A stretch of 64,000 bases of DNA from Scatophagus argus (taxonomy: Eukaryota > Chordata > Actinopteri > Scatophagidae): contig NC_058516.1 of assembly GCF_020382885.2 (NCBI RefSeq), forward strand, positions 5,364,594 to 5,428,593, in the 5' to 3' direction. Positions 34,797 through 62,960 of this stretch are shown one piece after another. Positions within the stretch are counted from its first letter, which is position 1; the number at the start of each line of letters is the position of its first letter. The position numbers were made by a program, and so were the translations under genes. The notes beneath the pieces are model-generated. The model was not told the origin of the DNA, ran no database searches, and saw only the letters and a program-made list of their open reading frames with translations.

Positions 34797-37700
34797 CTAA
34801 GTGTAATGGGAGCTTTCAGACACGACTCTGCCCGCCTCCACCTCCACCCGGATCACCAGGCATTTGTTGGAGTAGTCGGGGTATTCTGCTGGGATGACGG
34901 TCTCGGCAGGGATGATGGTTTCTGCTGGGATGACGGTCTCTGCTGGGATGATGGTCTCTGCTGGGATGATGGTCTCTGCAGGGATGACGGTCTCTGCTGG
35001 GATGACGGTGGGTTTTGGGTCTCGCGGCTTCTGTGGCAGCTGAACGTCTGCGTGCAAGTAAGGACTTGGATTGGTTGGTTTGTTTTTAGAAATCTGAGCG
35101 AAAGAGAGGTTTGATTTTAGTGGAACACAAAACATGAATCAATCATGAGAACACTGTTGTGTGTTAGTAACTATGAGCTTTTGTTGACTTCAGTTGGCAG
35201 TTTTCTAATTTTCCCAGAATTCTTTTCAACAGCTTCCTACCCTGCTGGAAATGACATTAACCAAAGTACTGTACTTAAGTACATTTCTGAAGTACATGTA
35301 CATGAGAATTTCCAGCTTGACTGTATTTGTTTGATAAATTTTGTTGTTACTTTATAGATTAGAGTTATTAATACATTTCTACAATTCTTGAATTTCCCTC
35401 GGGATCAATAAAGTATCTATCTATCTATCTAATTATTATCAAATAAAATATAAAATATCATTATAGATAAGCTGCCCAACAGTATTTAAAGTAACTGAAG
35501 TTAGCCCCACATTCACTAGCTGCAACATTTAAATTATACCTGCATTAATCCATCAGTGAGTTCAATCCAATAATATAATAAAATGTTAATATCTGTCCAG
35601 AATTTGTGGAAAAAAAAGTAAAATACACCGCAAAGACACCAAATAACGAAATGGTTCTCACCTGCGTGGCGCATGAGGTCATTCATTCTTCACAGAGACG
35701 GAGCAGAGACAGTTGTTAGTGCAAGCAAAAATCCATCATGATATGTTTCAGTAAACAGCAACACAGAAGCACAATGTGATGTGTTCCCAACCCCCAAATC
35801 TGCTATCTTCACTTACCTCTGCTCCTCGCCCTCCAGCAGCTTGTGGTAGGTGGCGATCTCGATGTCCAGGGCCATCTTGAGGTTCATCAGGTCATTGTAT
35901 TCGCGGATCTGCCCTGCCAAGTCCTGCTTAGCCCGCCTCAAAGCCTCCTCCAGCTGGACGATGTCCTCCCGGGCCTTCTCCAGGTTATCGTCGCCCTCTG
36001 ACCTCAAATCGTTTATTTCTTTCATCAGGGCCTCTTCCTAACCGGGCAAAATTGAGTGGAAAAGAGGAGATCAGAGGCTCATTGTATTGGACGAAGTGTG
36101 CGCTCAGGCCTGAACTCTGGGACTGTCTATCTGAGTCATCCTGACCTTCCTTATGAGAGCTTCCAGGTCCCCGTTGAGCCTCTGGATGTGGCGCACCATG
36201 TCTGAGATCTCCCTCTTTAAATCACGCACCTCCTGCTCACGCTGTCCTGCGCTGAGTACCATGGCATCCATCTAAATGTGGGGTGTGCAGCAAAATGTCC
36301 GCAATATTGAGGATGCACGCTTTCTTGTCCCCTCATACTGTATATTTGAGTTAAGACATCAAACACTGTCTTCTTCTTTGGGTAAAATCTTTCTTTTCCT
36401 CACCTTCTTCTTGTTCCAGTACTCGGCTTCCTCTCTGGTGCGTGCGGCCACGTTGGCATACTGCTTCCTGACGCTCTCAATAATCTCGTCCATGTCCAGA
36501 GAACGCTTGCTGTCGTCATGTAACACCAGTGTCTCGTTCTGGACTTGCGACTGCAGCTCCTTGATCTCCTGCAGGGGGCAGACATGAGCACAAGAGTCAT
36601 TTGTGTCTGTTTAATGTCTTTTTTTCACTGGGTTTGACGTCCTGTTGTCAAGTACCCGTCACTATCTCTGTCCACTACGGCCCTGCTGACTTATGGAAAC
36701 TGAAATAAACTCCAGTCATCACCTCATCATAGCCAGCCCTAAGGAAGTCCAGTTTTTCCATCAGTTCTTCCAGCTCCAGAACCACATCAACTGCCTCCAA
36801 GTGACCTTCATCTACATCCTATTGCACACACATTAAACACAACACAATAAGACATTGCTTTAAAAAAATGTCATACTGCCAAAGGGCAGTTTTTTTTACC
36901 ATGTTCCTACGTGTTTGAAGAAATAAGCACCAAATGAAGGTTAGAGTACCTTTTTTAGGACAACAAACTGATTCTCCAGGTCAATTTTCTTTTGTAACTC
37001 GTCCTCATAGCTGAAATCAAGAGAAAACAAAGGGTGAGAAATGATGCAGTACTGAGTCCTCTGGATGTATGCTGTGTTTGCAGCCATGGAAAAAAATCTT
37101 TCCTTTTAAATAACATAATCTCACCCAAGCCAAAAAGACAAAGTGCAGGGCCAGTGGGTGCACTAAATGGAGGTTTAGTGTGTGTAAATGGTGAATTATA
37201 GGATAAAAATTCAGTCACACCAACTTTGACCCACTAACCTTTTCTTGGTGTCCTCCACCTCCTCCTGCTTCTTGAGCAGTTCAGCCTGCAGTTTTTCCTG
37301 GTCGCGGATCAAGTTCTCGATCTGCTCCTCCATCGTGTTCTCCATCTGCTTTACGAGGTCGTCGATTTTCCCCTCGTAGTCGTCCTTCTCCTTCAGGATC
37401 TTCAGCTTTGTATCCAGCTTTTTGTTCTCATTCTCCAGGTGTTTTACCTGAGACAAGAGTCAGATGGGCAGGTTAACGGAAACCCAGGAGGATATGTTGG
37501 AGCAAAGTGATGACCCCGAAAGACCTCGGACTTAAAGTTATCAAAATATCCACAGGGTGGCGCCCTACATGAGCCTCCACCTCTGTTTACACGAAGTGAA
37601 GCCTGCAGGAGGAGACACTTTTCATGGCCTCAGGTCACAGAATTATCTCATGCTCCAGTACTGAAAACAGGTTTTACCGTCTTTTCTTTGTTTTACTTCG

Positions 37701-38271
37701 AGCTTTGGTGCAGGTGAGTGAATGAATAAGTACAACACTCAAAAGAAAAACAGGAAAACAAACTACTAAGCGAAAACGAAAGTGAAAAAGTATTAAAAAC
37801 ACGCAAACGCATAGAATTATGTCAAACGAATTATATCAAAACGTTAGAATAAACTCAAGAAAGAGGAAAATCTAATTACAAATTACGTGTTTTAGGTATC
37901 GATTTTTTTTCTATGAATAATGTATTTATAGTCACTTATAATCTATGTCCCCTTACTAAATGATCAAACGCAGTCAAGTACGTTTTGAGGAGTGAAAAAT
38001 AAAAAATAAATTAAATTCAACAGTGAGGTAATTTATATCATAATAAAAGAATTAATTAACTTAAACGAACAGCCATAGTAAACGACAAAACAACACTGAT
38101 GATAATAATAATAACAATTTACCAAACCTTGTCAATCAGCCTGACGAACTTGTCGTTGAGTCCAACCATGTCGTCCTTCTCCCTGGATTTGTCGGCGGTC
38201 GGGTAGCTTTTGCTCGGTCCTGAGCTGCTGGGGGTGTAGGACTGGCTGCTGTAGTCTCTTGGTTTGGACAT
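34797..38271 (-). CDS. Type II keratin-like intermediate filament protein, possible thread keratin alpha, 9 exons
   Basis: An epithelial intermediate filament chain expected to pair with a type I partner. In transcription order the coding exons are 38271-38128, 37447-37239, 37010-36950, 36818-36723, 36568-36404, 36271-36146, 36037-35817, 35687-35662 and 35047-34797; they join in frame to 432 codons. The internal lengths 209, 61, 96, 165, 126 and 221 are the classical type II keratin series, which excludes type I and type III. The head is short (about 37 residues, Ser/Pro/Tyr-rich). The rod starts at [18 protein letters not shown] and ends at [18 protein letters not shown], so both helix-boundary motifs are intact. 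The tail holds seven T[VI]IPAE-type hexapeptides (residues 363-404) and ends with [18 protein letters not shown], which echoes the KTVETRDGxVV tail box of vimentin, desmin and K8. The 26-bp exon 8 is the least certain join; its neighbours only fit in this phase. Plain krt8-like naming is the alternative to thread keratin alpha. Confidence 0.88.
34884..35009 (-). repeat. Coding minisatellite: seven 18-bp units in the keratin tail
   Basis: Seven head-to-tail 18-bp units, all in frame, each coding T-V/I-I-P-A-E. Units differ by 0-4 bases, mostly silent or V/I changes and CTGCTG versus CTGCAG. This pattern says that the peptide is kept under selection or that the array is recently homogenised. 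Confidence 0.95.
35258..35600. mobile_element. MITE-like element (copy 2), interrupted
   Basis: In intron 8 of the type II keratin-like gene. The left part has CCAAAGTACTGTACTTAAGT and ACATGTACATGAG. The right part has GATAAGCTGCCCAACAGTAT, TTAAAGTAACTGAAGTTAGC and AATCCAATAATATAATAAA, text I know from the interior of the same family as the 14-kb copy. Between them, at about 35,381-35,431, sits a retroelement tail. Confidence 0.6.
35381..35431 (+). repeat. Retroelement-type 3' tail (copy B) with (TATC)n
   Basis: AATTTCCCTCGGGATCAATA followed by AAGTATCTATCTATCTATCT. It is nested inside the MITE-like copy, so it inserted later. Confidence 0.7.
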
Positions 38272-38352
38272 ACTGAAGCTTGTTAACAGACAGCTGAAAC
38301 CTGAAAGATGAAGGTAAAGGTGAAGGTACCTGCAGCCGTCCGGATCACTCTC

Positions 38353-38358
38353 TTTAAA
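38353..38358 (-). promoter_or_regulatory. TATA-like box for the type II keratin-like gene
   Basis: TTTAAA (palindromic) about 80 bp before the minus-strand ATG, at a position that suits a short 5' UTR. It is one half of a divergent promoter whose other half is at 38,551. Confidence 0.45.
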
Positions 38359-38550
38359 GGTGGACAGGGACCACCCATCACCTCCCCGAAACTCTGCATG
38401 CGTCCAATCAAGAGAGGACAAGTGCAACTTTACAGCGAGAAAAATAAAAAAGTCGACATGAAATACTTGAATTTCTGCTCAATGCCAGTTTGTCCAGGAG
38501 TCGTGAGCCAATGGCATCGCAAGGGGGGCGGATTGATGCGTAAAAAGAGG

Positions 38551-38557
38551 TATAAAA
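38551..38557 (+). promoter_or_regulatory. TATA box for the type I keratin-like gene
   Basis: TATAAAA 78 bp before the ATG at 38,635, predicting a start of transcription near 38,580. Only 192 bp separate it from the TTTAAA of the divergent partner. Confidence 0.65.
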
Positions 38558-38634
38558 CCTACCTGCACACATCCGTCACATCCATCGGGTGACTCTGCAG
38601 ATTGAAGCACTCACTGTCACTGTCAGCAGGAATC

Positions 38635-41544
38635 ATGCCTTCAAACACCGCAGCCAGCATGTGTGGTGGAGCCGGGGGAAGGGGCTCCAGGGTGTCCGTG
38701 GCCAGCCTGGAGGGGCTGCGCAACGTGATGCGCAACGACACGGAGAGAGACTCCGCTCCAGTCGCTCCAGAAAACCCTGCCGCTCCTCCGGCTCAGGCCG
38801 CTCCTGCCGCCCCCGCGGACGACAAGCATACACTGCGGGGTCTGAACGACCGGCTGTCCGGCTACCTGGGCAGAGTGAGGCAGCTGGAGAAGGAAAACGA
38901 CGATTTGGAGAAACAGATCGATGAGATTTTGGCCAAGAGGAAAGCCCCCGAGGGACGCGACTGGGATGAGGTCGAGAAACCCCTGGAGGACCTCAAGAAG
39001 CAGGTTGTTCATCAGATTTACTTAAAAATGAAAAAATAACGTTGAGACTTGAAATAAGAAAAAATGATCTAAAATTCAAAATAATTTCTCAAAGACTGGA
39101 CTTAAATTACTGCTCATACCTGTCATGCATTCCTCTCCTTAGATAAAAGACCTTACCAAGGATAATGCCAAGCTGCTGCTCCAGATTGACAACACCAAAA
39201 TGGCTAATGATGACTTCAAGAACAAGTGAGTATCATGCAAATTAAACTTAAAAACAAAGATGATGTTTGAAATCAGAAGTCCAGACTCCACATCACAAAA
39301 CAACAAGATTTATTGTTGGGTTCCTCCCGCTGTGTGCAGGCTGGAGGATGAGAAGAAGGCTCGGAAGGAATTAGAAAAAGAGGTGGAGGATCTGAAGAAG
39401 GTAAAAGAGGTCACTAAGATGAACTGCATGCAGACACAGAAGGAGATCAATCTGGTGAAGGAGGAGCTCGCTCGCCTCAATCAGGAACACAAAGATGTGA
39501 GACTGGGAGAAAAAAAAACACTTCAAAACCAACTGATGAAATTATATTGTGTGAAATCTGACACAAATTTGTTGCTGCGGCTCCCGTAGGAGGTGGATGT
39601 CCTGTGTGAGAAGATCAAGGACTCCGAGGTGAAGGTGGAGATTGATTCCCAGAACTCCAACCTGGACGAGATGCTCAACAAGATCCGCGAACAGTACGAC
39701 AAACTCGCCCGGAAGAACCTGAAGGAGACCGAGGAGTGGTACCAGAGCAAGGTAAGATACCTGCAGGATCCCAGCATCTGACAGGTGTTTTCTTTGTTCG
39801 GCTCCTCCTCCTTCTACTCTGTTTATCTCACAATTTCCTTCTTTTTTTTCCATCTCCAGTTTGAGAACATCAAGGTGGTGGAGGCCCAAAACAACGAGGT
39901 CTTGTACTCTGGAAAGTCCGAGCTCAAGGAGCTGCTCAAGCAGAAACAAACTCTGGAAATTAAGATCCAGAGTGTGCACAGCACGGTAAACAAAATCTTT
40001 CCGTCCACAGTGGTGTTGGCTTTTTCACAAGCATTCCTGACTGCCCTGTAATTATATTGTAACTCTGCTAGTTTAAGACCAGGCCAACTCCCTATCTGTC
40101 TCACCTGGAGCCACCAGGATCTGCCTCTGCATAACAAAACAAATTGTGTCCATAAAAGAGATGTAGGCTCCTGAGAAGTCTCCAACACACGTTAACTATT
40201 TAATATGTAGACCAATATGTTAATATGATCACAAAAAAAACAAAAAACACCTTATGCTTTCTTTTCAGATCCACAATCTGGAGGAAACCCTGAAGAGCAC
40301 TAAGGTGGAGTACAGCCAACGCCTGGCTCCCCTCAACCAGGTGATACTGGACCTGCTGGCGGAGCTGGAGGAGGTGAGGTCACAGGTGGAGCGCCATGTC
40401 GAAACCAACAACAACCTGCTGTGTGTGAAGATGAAGCTGGAGGCGGAGATCAGCAACTACCAGCAACTGATTCAGGGCACGACGGCTGACCCTGAGAGGT
40501 GAGGATGGACTGTGACTGTGACAGACAAACCCCCCCCTCACCCGTCCCTTAGGCTGAAGTCATGAGAATCCATAGTTTTAATATGATATTACAACATGGA
40601 AAGGCATTCTCACTCAGTACGTTAGCATACTTATCCTCTTTTCCTGACAGCTCGAAGTTGTCTATAGAGGATGCTCTGCTCGCGGGTAAGTTCTGGATCC
40701 AGCCAAAAAAGAAAAAGAAAACCAAAAACATCACTACTTGAAATAAAATCACAACCACTCCAGCATGATCGTGTTTTGACTTGATTGAAAGGTTCATCTC
40801 TGGGTCAGTTACTACTGTCAGTTTGGTCTCACAATCTAATTGGCTCCTTTCCAACAGGAAAATGATCTTTTGTGAAACCTGTCTGTCCTAACTCTATCAT
40901 GTCTGTATTCTATGAAAATCAACAGCCGCAGTTAAACTTGAACCTAACCCTCATTACTCGCTCACGCCTGAGATGAAGCCTCTTGTGTCACTAATCTGCA
41001 CTCAGCTGTCACGTTGCACCTTGTAACCGCATGCAATCACACCAGATTTTAACATCACACACTCTGGTTGACTCTCCGGAAAAAGCACACACAGAATCAC
41101 TAAAATCTGAAGGGCCAGATTTATTCTTAACACACTGATGTGTTTGAAACTTGTCACATCTGATCCACCTTGTTTCCAGACCAGCAAAAGCCTTACAGTG
41201 AGGTGCCCGAGCAGCAGGAAGAAGTGAAGGAAGAGGTCCTTGTGAAGCACCAAAGTGCCCCCACTAACAAATCCACACCCCCCAAAGCTCCTGCCGATCC
41301 CACCACCGAAGCAGATCAAACCCCTGAAACGATGGAAGGAGACGTCGTCGAGAAGGCTGCTGCTGAGAAGGCCCAGAGCAGCAAGCCCAGTAAGAAGAAA
41401 AAATCCAAGACCAAAATTAAAGATTCATCCTCATCCTCTTCCTCTTCATCTTCTTCCTCTTCCTCCTCCTCCTCCTCTTCCTCCTCCTCCGATGAGAATG
41501 AAGATGAAAGCCCCAAGAACGAGGGCAAAGTGGCCAAAGCCTGA
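38635..41544 (+). CDS. Type I keratin-like intermediate filament protein, possible thread keratin gamma, 8 exons
   Basis: The presumed type I partner of the divergent type II chain. Coding exons are 38635-39003, 39143-39225, 39340-39496, 39590-39751, 39860-39985, 40269-40498, 40651-40685 and 41180-41544; they join in frame to 508 codons. The internal lengths 83, 157, 162 and 126 are the classical type I series, and exon 6 is 230 instead of the usual 221. The head (about 67 residues) lacks glycine loops and is rich in Ala/Pro. The rod starts at GLNDRLSGYLGRVRQLEKEN, but its end is degenerate: LEAEISNYQQLIQG where type I keratins have LExEIxTYRxLLEGE. The tail (about 120 residues) is hydrophilic: Glu/Pro/Lys-rich, then KPSKKKKSKTKIKD, then 22 serines (470-491) and DENEDES. 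The ATG has A at -3. Reading it as an ordinary krt18-like chain is less likely given the tail and helix end. Confidence 0.9.
41425..41490 (+). repeat. Poly-serine (TCN)22 tract in the type I keratin-like tail
   Basis: Twenty-two consecutive serine codons in mixed TCA/TCC/TCT use, with the longest pure TCC run only five. Mixed codons argue that the serines are selected for rather than being a fresh triplet expansion. Confidence 0.95.
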
Positions 41545-57556: not shown

Positions 57557-58717
57557 TGGAGATGATCAGTTAATGAACCGCTGCGGGTTCTGATAAAGCC
57601 CATGAGGTTGGATCTTGTGTACCTGATAAACTGCAAATAAGGTAAATGAGGCGCTTTCTTAAAAGAAAATCAGCTTCTTGTGCTACTTCCTAACCAGATT
57701 TTGTATATATTTGCGCTATCTAAAGCTAGGAGAACCCATTGTTTTCATTCTTATTTACTATTAGCCAGCTTGCTAACTAGCTAAAACTTTTAACGTACTC
57801 GCAAATTAAATTGTCCGGTGGGGTGATTTTGCGCATGTCAGACTGTCTTACTCATGCGCTAAAGATAACTGAGCCAGTCAGGTTTAGCGTGCTAGCAGCT
57901 AAGAATCGGTGAAGCCCTGGTATGCTAAAACTCACTTTGTTACTCAGTGCCCGGCTTGTGTAACTTATTTGTTTTGCCCCTGAAAATGTTGACACGTACC
58001 TCAGAGCATGTAATCCATCCCCCGGGACGACGCAGTGTATTTATACGCCATTCTTTAGAAAGAGCCAGTACGTAGAGATGTGCTTCATGTGCTTCAGCAT
58101 GTGGCTTTTCTAGCAGATAATCTCACTTGTATTTTTTTGTGAAGGATTTCTCGTTGAAAACTTGCTGATCTCCTCTTCTGTGACTGTAAGCTGAATATTT
58201 TTGTGTTGGACTGCCGGTCAGTCTAAAAAAAGCTATTTGGGGACATATGCTTGAGCACATGAAGAATGATAATAATTGTTAATTACAGCCCCATTTTAGG
58301 TAAGGTAAAACAGCCATGCTCTAGTATTAGCTGCACAGAGTCAATGTAATCTGACTAACTGACAGCAATGTTATCTTTTCAGGTTAACAATGACACCCGA
58401 CTGCATGATGTCACAGTGTGGAAAGGAGCAAAGGTCAACATTTTCTCTTACATGCTCACGGCCGCATGTAGCACTTTAACTACATTGTCTACACCCTGTT
58501 AAACAGTTCACTCTAGCCGTTTCAGTATTCTTTTGCTTGGAGAGGCAGACGAGTTGAGACCAAACCGCAGCCTGATTGAAGTGTCCAGCCCTAACAGTTG
58601 GGTTTGTTTGTTCAAGTCGGCTGCTTTTCAGGTGAAAACAAATCCTCACATGGTGATTTGACCTAGCAAAACAGTTACACTCTGCGTAACAGAGTGGTCC
58701 GTAAACCGGCTCACACA

Positions 58718-61700
58718 ATGGTAGTGGATGACACAGCAGGAAGTGGAGACAGATCAGATGGGGAGAAGGAGATGGACCTTAAGGTGCCTACATCTGAGGA
58801 CATCGGAGGGCATCAAGACGGGGATATAGGCATGGCTGTCTCTGCTCCTGAGGTCCTGTCTTCCTCCGACCGTCCTTCAGCGGAAGCTGGAGAGTCCAGA
58901 AATTGGAAGTGCGCCGTGATGTTCTTGTGTTTCTATGGGTTTATGGTATCCATTAAACCTGGGGAGCCCTTCATTACACCCTATCTGCTCAGCCCAGAGA
59001 AGAACTTCACCACGGAGCAGGTTAGTGGTGTCCTCATACTGAAATGTGTTGGTCTTCATTCAAGGCAAAAGAACACCAGTGTAACTACATTTGGGATCTT
59101 ATTTTTAATGCCAAAAAGGCCAATAGTAAAAAGCTAGAAGACATTCCAGTACTGCAGAGTTGCACTCCGGACTCTTGTACAGGAAACTATTGACAATGAA
59201 AGTTAACCTGTAAGACTCTTCTCTGGAATTCTTTCGCCTTGCAGTCAAACACTCATTACACAGAAGAGGTAATGAGTGCCACTGTGGGGAGCTTGCTGAT
59301 CCATCTTACTGTGGTCAGAGTTCACATTCTTCCAAAGTGGGTCAGTGTAATAGGCATGTAGCGGCTTACTGTTGAGGAATTGCCGTGAAATCGTCAGTGA
59401 TTTGTAGATTTTGATTATTTGTTCTAATTTACTCTGTATTGACCATGAACTGTTGCTAAGAGCTGATTACTTGCCAGAGTGTCACAAATTTGTTGTGTAG
59501 GATACACAGTTCACCTCAGTGTTTGTTTATATTGCAGTCATTGTCACTGCCATGTCCCATAAATTCCCATATTTATCAGATTCCAGGGAAGAAGTTGACC
59601 TTTCATTGTCCCTCATCATCTGCTTGCTCCCATAACTGTGATTACGTGTGTTGCCCAGCATTGTCACGGCTTTGAAACTGATATTTTAGATTGAACATTG
59701 GACTTTAGATATCACCATGTAAAATCAAATAGACAATTTATTTTAGAAATCCTGTTGACCAAATGAATGTAAGCACAATGTAATTAAAACCCAAATCTTT
59801 ATTATTATATTTGAGTAGCTAAAAGCAAGACATTTTTTGGGGTGGATGTTTTTGCTTGGAAAAAAGGCAAACAATCTCTGACTGTTGACTTGACTAATTT
59901 GTCTTTTAATTGTTGAAGCTCTAAATTTTACTTCACTTTATGAGAGCTTTTGATGCATCCTTTTGTATCAAAAGCAGAAGAAATATTTGCAGTGATGTTG
60001 TGATACTTTTTCCTGTCATGTTGCCCAACTTTGTGTTGTGAGGTATATTGATATTGGGGGAGAGATAAGACTTCATATGTCCTAATCACCCATCATTAAA
60101 TTGTTTATCATCATGAACTCTTATGGTAATTACCGGAAGATTAAGGTCTGACTTCTGCAAGAACAGAGTAGTTAGTTGAAATTTGCTTGTAGTTACCATT
60201 TTGAACTACACAGTAACAAAATAGTAACAAAAAAGTACCGTAACAAAACAGCTAAGAGAAACTGGTACATTTCATATTTTGTGAACTAAAACTGGAGCTT
60301 GATGGAGCATCTCAATCACAGCTGCATTTGTTTGACTTTACTGTAATTTCCAGGTGACCAATGAGATCATTCCTGTGCTGACGTACTCCTACATGGCCGT
60401 GCTGGTGCCGGCCTTCCTGTTGACGGATCTTATGCGCTACAAGCCGGTCCTGATCATCCAGGCCATCAGCCAGGTGGTCATCTGGCTTGTTCTGCTCCTG
60501 GGCAACACCCTCCTCGAGATGCAGTTTATGGAGTTCTTCTACGGCATCACCATGGCCTGCCGTGTGGCCTACTCCTCCTACATCTTCTCCCTGGTCAATC
60601 CAAAACTCTACCAGCGCGTGGCTGGATATTCGCGCTCCTCGGTCCTCCTGGGGGTGTTCACCAGCTCGGTGGTTGGCCAGCTGTGCATGTCCGTGGGCAA
60701 CATCAGCTTCTACACCCTCAATGCTATATCTTTGGGGTTCGTCAGCTTTGGTCTGCTGCTCTCACTGTTCCTGCCCTGGCCTAAACGCTCCCTGTTTTTC
60801 AATCGGATGCAGAATCAGGGGCAAAAAGAACTGACGGAAGTAGCCACCAAATCTGAACTGGACAAAATTAACCCGAAAGACGGCGTGTCGTCCTCTGCGG
60901 CGCCTCCGTGCCCTAGATCACGCTGGAGGGATTCTGTGTTTGTGCAGATGCTGCTTGAGGTGAGAGAAGTGGTGAAGAGGCCCAACCTGAGGCTGTGGTC
61001 CCTGTGGTGGGTGTTCAACTCCACAGGGTACTACCTGGTGCTGTTCTACGTTCACATCCTGTGGAACAAAGTCTACCCGCCCTCTGAGAACAAGCGCGTT
61101 TACAACGGGGCAGTGGAGGCAGCTTCTACCCTGCTGAGTACGACATTTCTGGAGCTTTTAAAGGAATACTGCTGCGTTTTTGCAATGTTATGTGTGTGTG
61201 TTTCGCTCAGCGTTCAAGCAGCAGTTCAGCAGTCCTCTGTGCTATTAATTATATTGGCACGTCTCTCCAGCTTCCCATCTAAATTTAGATATAATTAATG
61301 GAAACAGTCAATAAGGAAAATATCAAAAGCCTTACAGCCAAAGGCCTACAGGAAGCATTTGTTTTTGATATTAGTGGCTTCAACGCCCAAGGTTTCTCTG
61401 AAAAGGAAAAGGAAGGATCACACAGGATTGTCATGCCAAGAGAAATGTTTTATCTATGAAGGTAGCTTTAAACGTTGAATGAGAAAGGAAAGAATGTTGG
61501 ACATGAAGGAGACAACAAAGTTATGGAGCTGCTGTGAGTTTTAAACACACCGGCTGGTCTGGTGAATGACGCCCTGCATTGACTGAAGAGCATATAGTGA
61601 AGGTCAGCGCCTTGTAGATTGGAGAAAACTAAAATAGAAAGTTAATTTGTGTTTATTCCCTCAGCACTAAAATCTCATAAATCTGGACTTAAACTGACTG

Positions 61701-62960
61701 AACTTCTGCCCCCAGTAGAGCGATCGATCTCACAGCTTTATTCTGCCAGCAGGTTGTTTAATTAACCTTGACATCATGTGAAAGCAGTAAAAGTTAGACC
61801 AAAACAAAATCTGATGGGAGCTCACTGATAACAGAAAAAACTTCTTCCCAGCAGCTGGGAGGAAGCTTAGCTATTATTTGCTAATAGTAGCCATTTTTTT
61901 TTTTAATTGAAAGTAAAGGGTTCTCAGTAACCACAGTATGTCTGCACAGACCACTTGCTTTGAGTAACCCTGATGAATAGATTTTTTGAGATTTTTAACC
62001 TCAATCTGTGTTTCGGCAGGCACGATGACGTCCTTCAGTGCGGGCTTTGTGAAAATCCGGTGGAACATCTGGTCCGAGCTGGTCATCGGCCTGATCACAG
62101 CAGTGCAGGCAGCACTGCTGCTCCTCATGGGCAACACAGACAACATTTGGGTCTGCTACGTGGCCTACATCCTGTTCAGGGGCTTCTACCAGTTCCTGGT
62201 GCCTATTGCCACGTGAGTGCCAAATAAAAACCTATTATTTACTGTCTAAATCTGAAACCAGAATCCACCAATTACTTCACCTGCACCTGCACCTGCTGCA
62301 GCTGGAGGAAAGTTCACAGGTTCACCACAAATGGAGAAAAAAGTTACTAAGCTGAATAAAAGTACTTTTCCAGTTTCACTGTATGAAATAACAAGACAAC
62401 ACTTAGGGCGACATCATGTTGAATTGAATCCCTTGAAGTGCCTCCCACGCTGACAGTCATGTTGTGAGCTAACTGTATTGTAAGCGTTTCTCTCATCTGT
62501 CGGCTCCGTGTTCATCATCTCTTCTTCTCTCCATAGTTTCCAGATTGCCTCGTCGCTCACCAAGGAGCTGTGCGCCTTGGTGTTTGGCATCAACACCTTT
62601 CTGGGGACCATTTTGAACAGCATCATCATCCTGATATTTGCTGAAAAGAGAGGCCTGGGGTTGGATGTGCACGATCAGGTAAAATTTAACACCTCAGAAG
62701 ATTATGCCGGTGTCAAACACAAAGTTGGCAACTACAATGTGTCTGTATCTCTCTTACAGTTCCTGGTGTACTTCATTTACCTCACCATTCTTACCGTCAT
62801 CTACTTTATCTGTGCCACCGTGGTCATCATGCGTCACTATAGAAACAAGCCCAGGGAAGGAGGCGGGACCAACGAGCAGGCCTCGCCCATGGAGCTGCAT
62901 CCTGTGACTGCGAGTTCAGAGGCAGAAACTTTAACTAACGGCGCAAGTGCCAAAGCATAA
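58718..62960 (+). CDS. slc19a1: Reduced folate carrier (solute carrier family 19 member 1), 5 coding exons
   Basis: A 12-helix plasma-membrane antiporter that brings reduced folates into the cell. Coding exons are 58718-59020, 60354-61137, 62020-62212, 62537-62678 and 62760-62960; they join in frame to 540 codons (human 591). The ATG has A at -3 and G at +4; the exon probably opens after the acceptor at 58,631. The N-terminal tail (about 66 residues) is longer than in mammals and the C-terminal tail shorter. Family text: CFYGFMVSIKPGEPFITPYL, KNFTTEQ (sequon N96, the human N58 site), YSSYIFSLVNP, QRVAGYSRSSVLLGVFTSSV, PKRSLFFNR, LVLFYVHILWNKV, SAGFVKIRWNIW, FQIASSLTKELCALVFGIN. These fit SLC19A1 clearly better than the thiamine carriers SLC19A2/3 (for example FVKIRW, VAGYSR). 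Intron 4 is only 81 bp and open in frame. Confidence 0.93.

Follow-up and report, generated by a model that had tools for sequence, protein, structure and literature searches.

A divergent type II/type I keratin-like gene pair between gpbar1 and arpc2 in Scatophagus argus, a likely thread-keratin alpha/gamma locus

Why should keratin-like genes of type II and type I lie head to head in a fish genome, with 363 bp between their start codons, and do they share a promoter? The question is raised by a pair of genes in a 64,000-nucleotide stretch of the Scatophagus argus genome (contig NC_058516.1, positions 5,364,594 to 5,428,593, assembly GCF_020382885.2), the whole of which is called the window below and supplies the coordinates of the pair and its neighbours. 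We consider it probable that the window holds the teleost thread-keratin alpha/gamma locus, and that both genes diverge from the 363-bp region with shared upstream elements.

Two divergent intermediate-filament genes

Positions 34797-41544 hold two intact, divergent intermediate-filament genes, the ends of the span being their stop codons (34797 for alpha and 41544 for gamma). The ATG of alpha lies at 38271 on the minus strand and that of gamma at 38635 on the plus strand. In our splice models the minus-strand, thread-keratin-alpha-like gene (34797-38271) has nine coding exons (38271-38128, 37447-37239, 37010-36950, 36818-36723, 36568-36404, 36271-36146, 36037-35817, 35687-35662 and 35047-34797) encoding 432 residues with an isoelectric point (pI) of 4.8; the plus-strand, thread-keratin-gamma-like gene (38635-41544) has eight (38635-39003, 39143-39225, 39340-39496, 39590-39751, 39860-39985, 40269-40498, 40651-40685 and 41180-41544) encoding 508 residues with a pI of 5.2. 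The rod exons of both genes were recovered independently of these hand-made models by spliced alignment with human vimentin as query, which returned exons 1-7 of alpha and exons 1-6 of gamma, exon 6 in part. Both products match the Pfam Filament model (247 bits for alpha, 225 bits for gamma).

The two genes belong to different keratin types. The rod exons of alpha run 209/61/96/165/126/221, a series typical of type II keratin genes, and those of gamma run 83/157/162/126, the type I series. Among the keratin chains of the PDB, alpha scored 95 bits with K5 and 40 bits with K14, and gamma 69 bits with K14 and 36 bits with K5; the top PDB match overall was full-length vimentin for both (human, 147 bits, for alpha; 123 bits for gamma), in the case of alpha because it is the longest chain. 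A first-pass annotation of this DNA had claimed ATGs 363 bp apart, one type II and one type I exon series, and a pair lying far from any other keratin gene in the window. The start codons bear out the first claim, and the exon series, the PDB scores and the tree described below bear out the second; as for the third, the four filament matches listed inside the window, on the contig we call C24, are all exons of this pair.

Some features of the proteins are peculiar. Type II keratins are neutral-basic with a long head, whereas alpha has a pI of 4.8 and a short head of 27 residues ahead of the aligned rod; six ordinary type II genes of the same genome have 201-423 bp from their most upstream in-frame ATG to the rod start point. 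Alpha is moreover the more acidic partner, with a net rod charge of -26 versus -11 in gamma. The helix-end motif of gamma is deviant (EISNYQQLIQG versus E[IS]xxYxxLL in most other rods), and its letter make-up is unusual. In the alpha tail an 18-bp tandem repeat (34885-35009, minus strand) codes for seven copies of T[VI]IPAE, which differ by V/I and synonymous changes and are possibly length-polymorphic, and the gamma tail carries a serine run followed by an acidic stretch (41424-41490, plus strand).

Could the models be an annotation artefact, or the genes decayed? The alpha model is uncertain in its last two exons: exon 8 measures only 26 bp, and for exon 9 the acceptor at 35048 was preferred because it keeps the frame. 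Both genes also have a weak donor at their first intron (GTTTGG and GTTGTT). On the other side, the frames are open across nine and eight exons with GT-AG sites, and polyadenylation-type signals follow both genes, so that this explanation is in our judgment scarcely credible. Two other structures were tried for alpha and rejected: a stronger-looking acceptor before 35093 for the last exon, which brings in an internal stop, and an intron in the 5' untranslated region at an acceptor-like site (CTTTCAG), dropped after inspection by eye, since with the donor-like site close by the intron would measure some 30 bp.

Comparison with the filament genes of the same genome

The pair was compared with 29 loci of the S. 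argus genome, taken from at least 151 exon-level filament matches; they gave 31 spliced models, which were assigned to types I to IV by exon pattern ("type IV" including the intronless gene L002). All six type II models show the series 209/61/96/165/126; their last aligned exon measures 222 in four and 228 in one, and is split 144+78 in one. The series 83/157/162-165/126 is found exactly in 11 of the 16 type I models; the remaining five (one in L010, L011, one in L024, L027 and L028) deviate at least partly because the aligner split or merged exons.

Within their own types the two genes are outliers to the 22 modelled ordinary type I and type II keratins, both by identity and in the tree. The alpha rod is 41-44% identical to the six type II rods, which are 66-91% identical to each other (15 pairs), and the gamma rod is 31-38% identical to the sixteen type I rods, themselves 39-93% identical (120 pairs). 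A tree was built from 33 rods, namely 30 of the 31 models (one incomplete model was left out), alpha, gamma and human vimentin. In it alpha joins the six type II rows with support of 100/99 and gamma falls inside the type I rows at 100/100, both on long branches. The arrangement of alpha and gamma as one clade was rejected (p 3.7e-6).

These data also bear on whether the pair might be fast-evolving krt8/krt18 paralogues of this fish lineage and not thread keratins, "krt8-like" and "krt18-like" being labels given from position and tree, not from reference sequence. Grouping with krt8/krt18 had been named by the first-pass annotation as a result that would refute its reading, and the outcome is divided. 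In the best tree gamma stands beside three krt18-like rows (63/41), with which it has a KLEAEI stretch in common; a tree with gamma outside every type I row is worse by only 0.2 log units (p 0.47). For alpha, a grouping with two krt8-like rows comes out as no more than borderline in the approximately unbiased test (p 0.058). Such an origin is countered by the identities, which for alpha lie below those of all 15 type II pairs and for gamma below those of all 120 type I pairs modelled, and by the six ordinary type II rows, which group without alpha (88/85, not starred). We regard paralogy of this kind as quite improbable; a deep sister relation to krt8/krt18-like genes is compatible with the tree.

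Some other loci of this survey deserve a mention. L024 (C16:22359000-22368900) contains two very similar type I keratin genes in opposite orientation, identical in their first 25 residues and with branch lengths of 0.07 and 0.00, apparently a recent inverted duplication. L027 (C4) and L028 (C20), labelled type I, stand off from the remaining type I rows as a group of their own (100/100). About 4.2 Mb from the thread-keratin-like pair, C24 also carries a type III gene, L029 (C24:1160500-1165500), with 71% rod identity to human vimentin.

When adjoining genes were judged among the modelled filament genes, all three type I/type II junctions (3/3) were divergent. Besides the window pair they comprise krt8/krt18-like pairs on C3 (17.37 Mb) and C8 (21.83-21.87 Mb), in which, as in the window, a type II and a type I gene with the same exon series are divergent. 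The gaps, taken for C3 and C8 from the most upstream in-frame ATGs, are 6,354 bp and 33,066 bp (6.4 and 33 kb), unlike the 363 bp (0.36 kb) of the window pair; the C3 and C8 rods are also much closer to other keratins than the alpha and gamma rods are, and their type II genes have longer heads than alpha. In mammals KRT18 is located in the type II cluster with KRT8 (PMC7086170). The shared orientation suggests that the divergent type II/type I pair is old and has a compact form at the window locus.

The intergenic region as a putative divergent promoter

The region between the two genes (38272-38634, 363 bp, 48% GC, CpG observed/expected 0.58) contains a TATAAAA on the gamma side (38551-38557, plus strand), 84 nt before the gamma ATG, and a TTTAAA on the alpha side (38353-38358, minus strand), 87 nt before the alpha ATG, and these similar distances support a shared, divergent promoter region. 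In mononucleotide shuffles, the only background used for these motif strings, TATAWAW is expected 0.13 times per strand and TTTAAA 0.09 times. TTTAAA is only a weak TATA variant and is palindromic, and the alpha-side box is therefore the less secure of the two. Thus, of the two TATA-type boxes 192 bp apart that had been proposed earlier, the spacing and the TATAAAA stand, and the alpha box is reduced to a weak variant. CCAAT strings occur at 38404 and 38508, the latter, together with a GC box (GGGCGG) at 38526, just upstream of TATAAAA, and an AP-2-like GCCNNNGGC at 38507 overlaps the second CCAAT.

To judge from its motifs, this content is compatible with two back-to-back core promoters with common upstream elements, and one shared promoter between alpha and gamma is plausible. 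In the mechanism that we propose, the two core promoters would share the CCAAT and GC box; since the upstream elements would be shared, one epidermal cue would switch on both subunits of the obligate heteropolymer, in roughly matched amounts; the 1:1 expression unit suggested by the first-pass annotation is hypothetical. The back-to-back layout could in this way let one control region activate both genes.

The same facts may be read otherwise, as thread keratins each with its own promoter and enhancers, whose closeness would be inherited compactness with no functional coupling. Each gene can indeed be given its own TATA-like box, and partner keratins need no coupling, given the 6 and 33 kb that separate them at the other two type I/II junctions among the modelled genes. 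Head-to-head layout is in itself common, about 10% of genes being divergent neighbours within 1 kb (PMC4089025); the unusual point here is the pairing of one type II with one type I keratin-like gene. Nevertheless, 192 bp between the boxes would leave little room for separate proximal elements, and the zebrafish alpha and gamma genes are listed adjacently among the top 50 differentially expressed host genes of infected larvae in a figure legend of PMC6980646. Independent control is for us an unlikely explanation, and a shared upstream region the favoured one.

Thread-keratin identity, neighbourhood and origin

Teleost thread keratins alpha and gamma were reportedly described by Schaffeld and Schultess in 2006, and the pair is likely to be best read as their counterparts, an identity and a name which we infer. 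No thread-keratin chain was named among the 15 and the 31 PDB sequences matched, and a scan of viral contigs returned no relatives of the pair, as expected for a fish gene. A zebrafish survey sets thread keratin alpha (si:dkey-183i3.5), thread keratin gamma (zgc:136930) and krt222 apart from the accepted type I and type II keratins (PMC6778804); the first two are fitted by the outliers found here, one of them type II-like and the other type I-like. The likeness is by description, and, as a difference, the head-to-head layout was not found stated for the zebrafish genes in the passages at hand.

The hagfish slime-thread alpha and gamma proteins are a further comparison. In PMC10005773 the alpha family is described as sister to the type II keratins and the gamma family as sister to the type I keratins, with orthologues in teleosts and amphibians. 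The sister position of alpha to type II (88/85) agrees with this; the exact place of gamma relative to the type I rows (63/41; p 0.47) is less firm. In hagfish there are many slime-gland-specific copies (PMC10005773), with two clusters of slime-gland keratin genes (PMC10972751), whereas we found one gene of each kind among the modelled loci, beyond which a second thread-keratin copy may exist. The resemblance to thread keratins claimed in the first-pass annotation is thus retained insofar as an outlying type II/type I pair exists, the identity itself being likely.

As to function, the Danio alpha and gamma orthologues are skin-specific, and teleost and amphibian epidermis is not known to have thread-bearing cells (PMC10005773). 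The listing in infected larvae mentioned above, the lowering of zgc:136930 after ultraviolet B (UVB; PMC7341518) and its presence in a table within the section on pax6b-dependent cornea genes (PMC4334901) fit a surface epithelium. Nothing showing a secreted thread in teleosts was present in the literature passages, and a filament inside epidermal cells is a likelier product than a thread that is secreted.

Several points weigh against the locus being a thread-keratin pair with a shared promoter, or against an old origin of its layout. The names came by elimination, from the published zebrafish outliers and from the suggestion of the first-pass annotation. Thread-keratin gamma genes are reportedly type III-like in structure (Schaffeld and Schultess, 2006), and gamma here has a type I structure. 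The C3 and C8 pairs may be copies of one ancestral locus from the teleost genome duplication, in which case the three divergent junctions may be two independent cases. In the promoter, the alpha-side TATA is weak, the start sites were guessed from the TATA-like boxes alone, a scan of the 363 bp for epithelial-type motifs gave no full AP-1, GRHL, ETS, TEAD or C/EBP string, and the best match of the intergenic DNA to the 29 filament loci of the genome is at chance level (E 0.71). Finally, alpha is among six repressed structural genes in the stressed zebrafish telencephalon, where gamma is not named (PMC6361922).

The pair sits between gpbar1 (30.8 kb) and arpc2, on the minus strand, of which one exon near 45.5-45.9 kb was tested. 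Farther out are a gene at about 21-25 kb, which we take by eye to be aamp and whose only Pfam match is a WD-repeat propeller model at 21 bits, far below the cut-off; a CXCR1/2-type receptor (54.9 kb); and, downstream of it, a reduced folate carrier (58667-62960), which scored 327 bits with SLC19A1 and 200 bits with thiamine transporter 2. Human 2q35 presumably keeps ARPC2, GPBAR1, AAMP and CXCR1/2 together and has no keratin among them, in which case the pair has been lost there.

Because the krt8/krt18-like pairs of this fish have the divergent orientation too, the layout is probably inherited: a type II/type I pair already divergent in an ancestor has likely been duplicated, and the window holds a compact copy. 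A broader scenario, which we put forward tentatively and with more doubt than belief, is that the keratins of vertebrates go back to a single divergent type II/type I pair, that duplication of the whole pair gave the krt8/krt18 and thread-keratin loci, that the thread-keratin locus between gpbar1 and arpc2 keeps a compact bidirectional promoter locking the stoichiometry of the heteropolymer, and that amniotes lost this locus.

The genes themselves are already known. The head-to-head layout of the thread-keratin pair was not found stated in the passages seen on teleost thread keratins or bidirectional keratin promoters, subscription papers being mostly outside the search; the tight divergent layout between gpbar1 and arpc2 may be new, as may its likeness to that of the krt8/krt18-like pairs. 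Should the layout be conserved, it would offer a small promoter from which two filament partners could be expressed in balance, and would hint that the keratin classes arose as a divergent pair, not as two separate clusters. The gpbar1-arpc2 interval is, moreover, a genomic address at which to seek thread keratins, or their loss, in other vertebrates.

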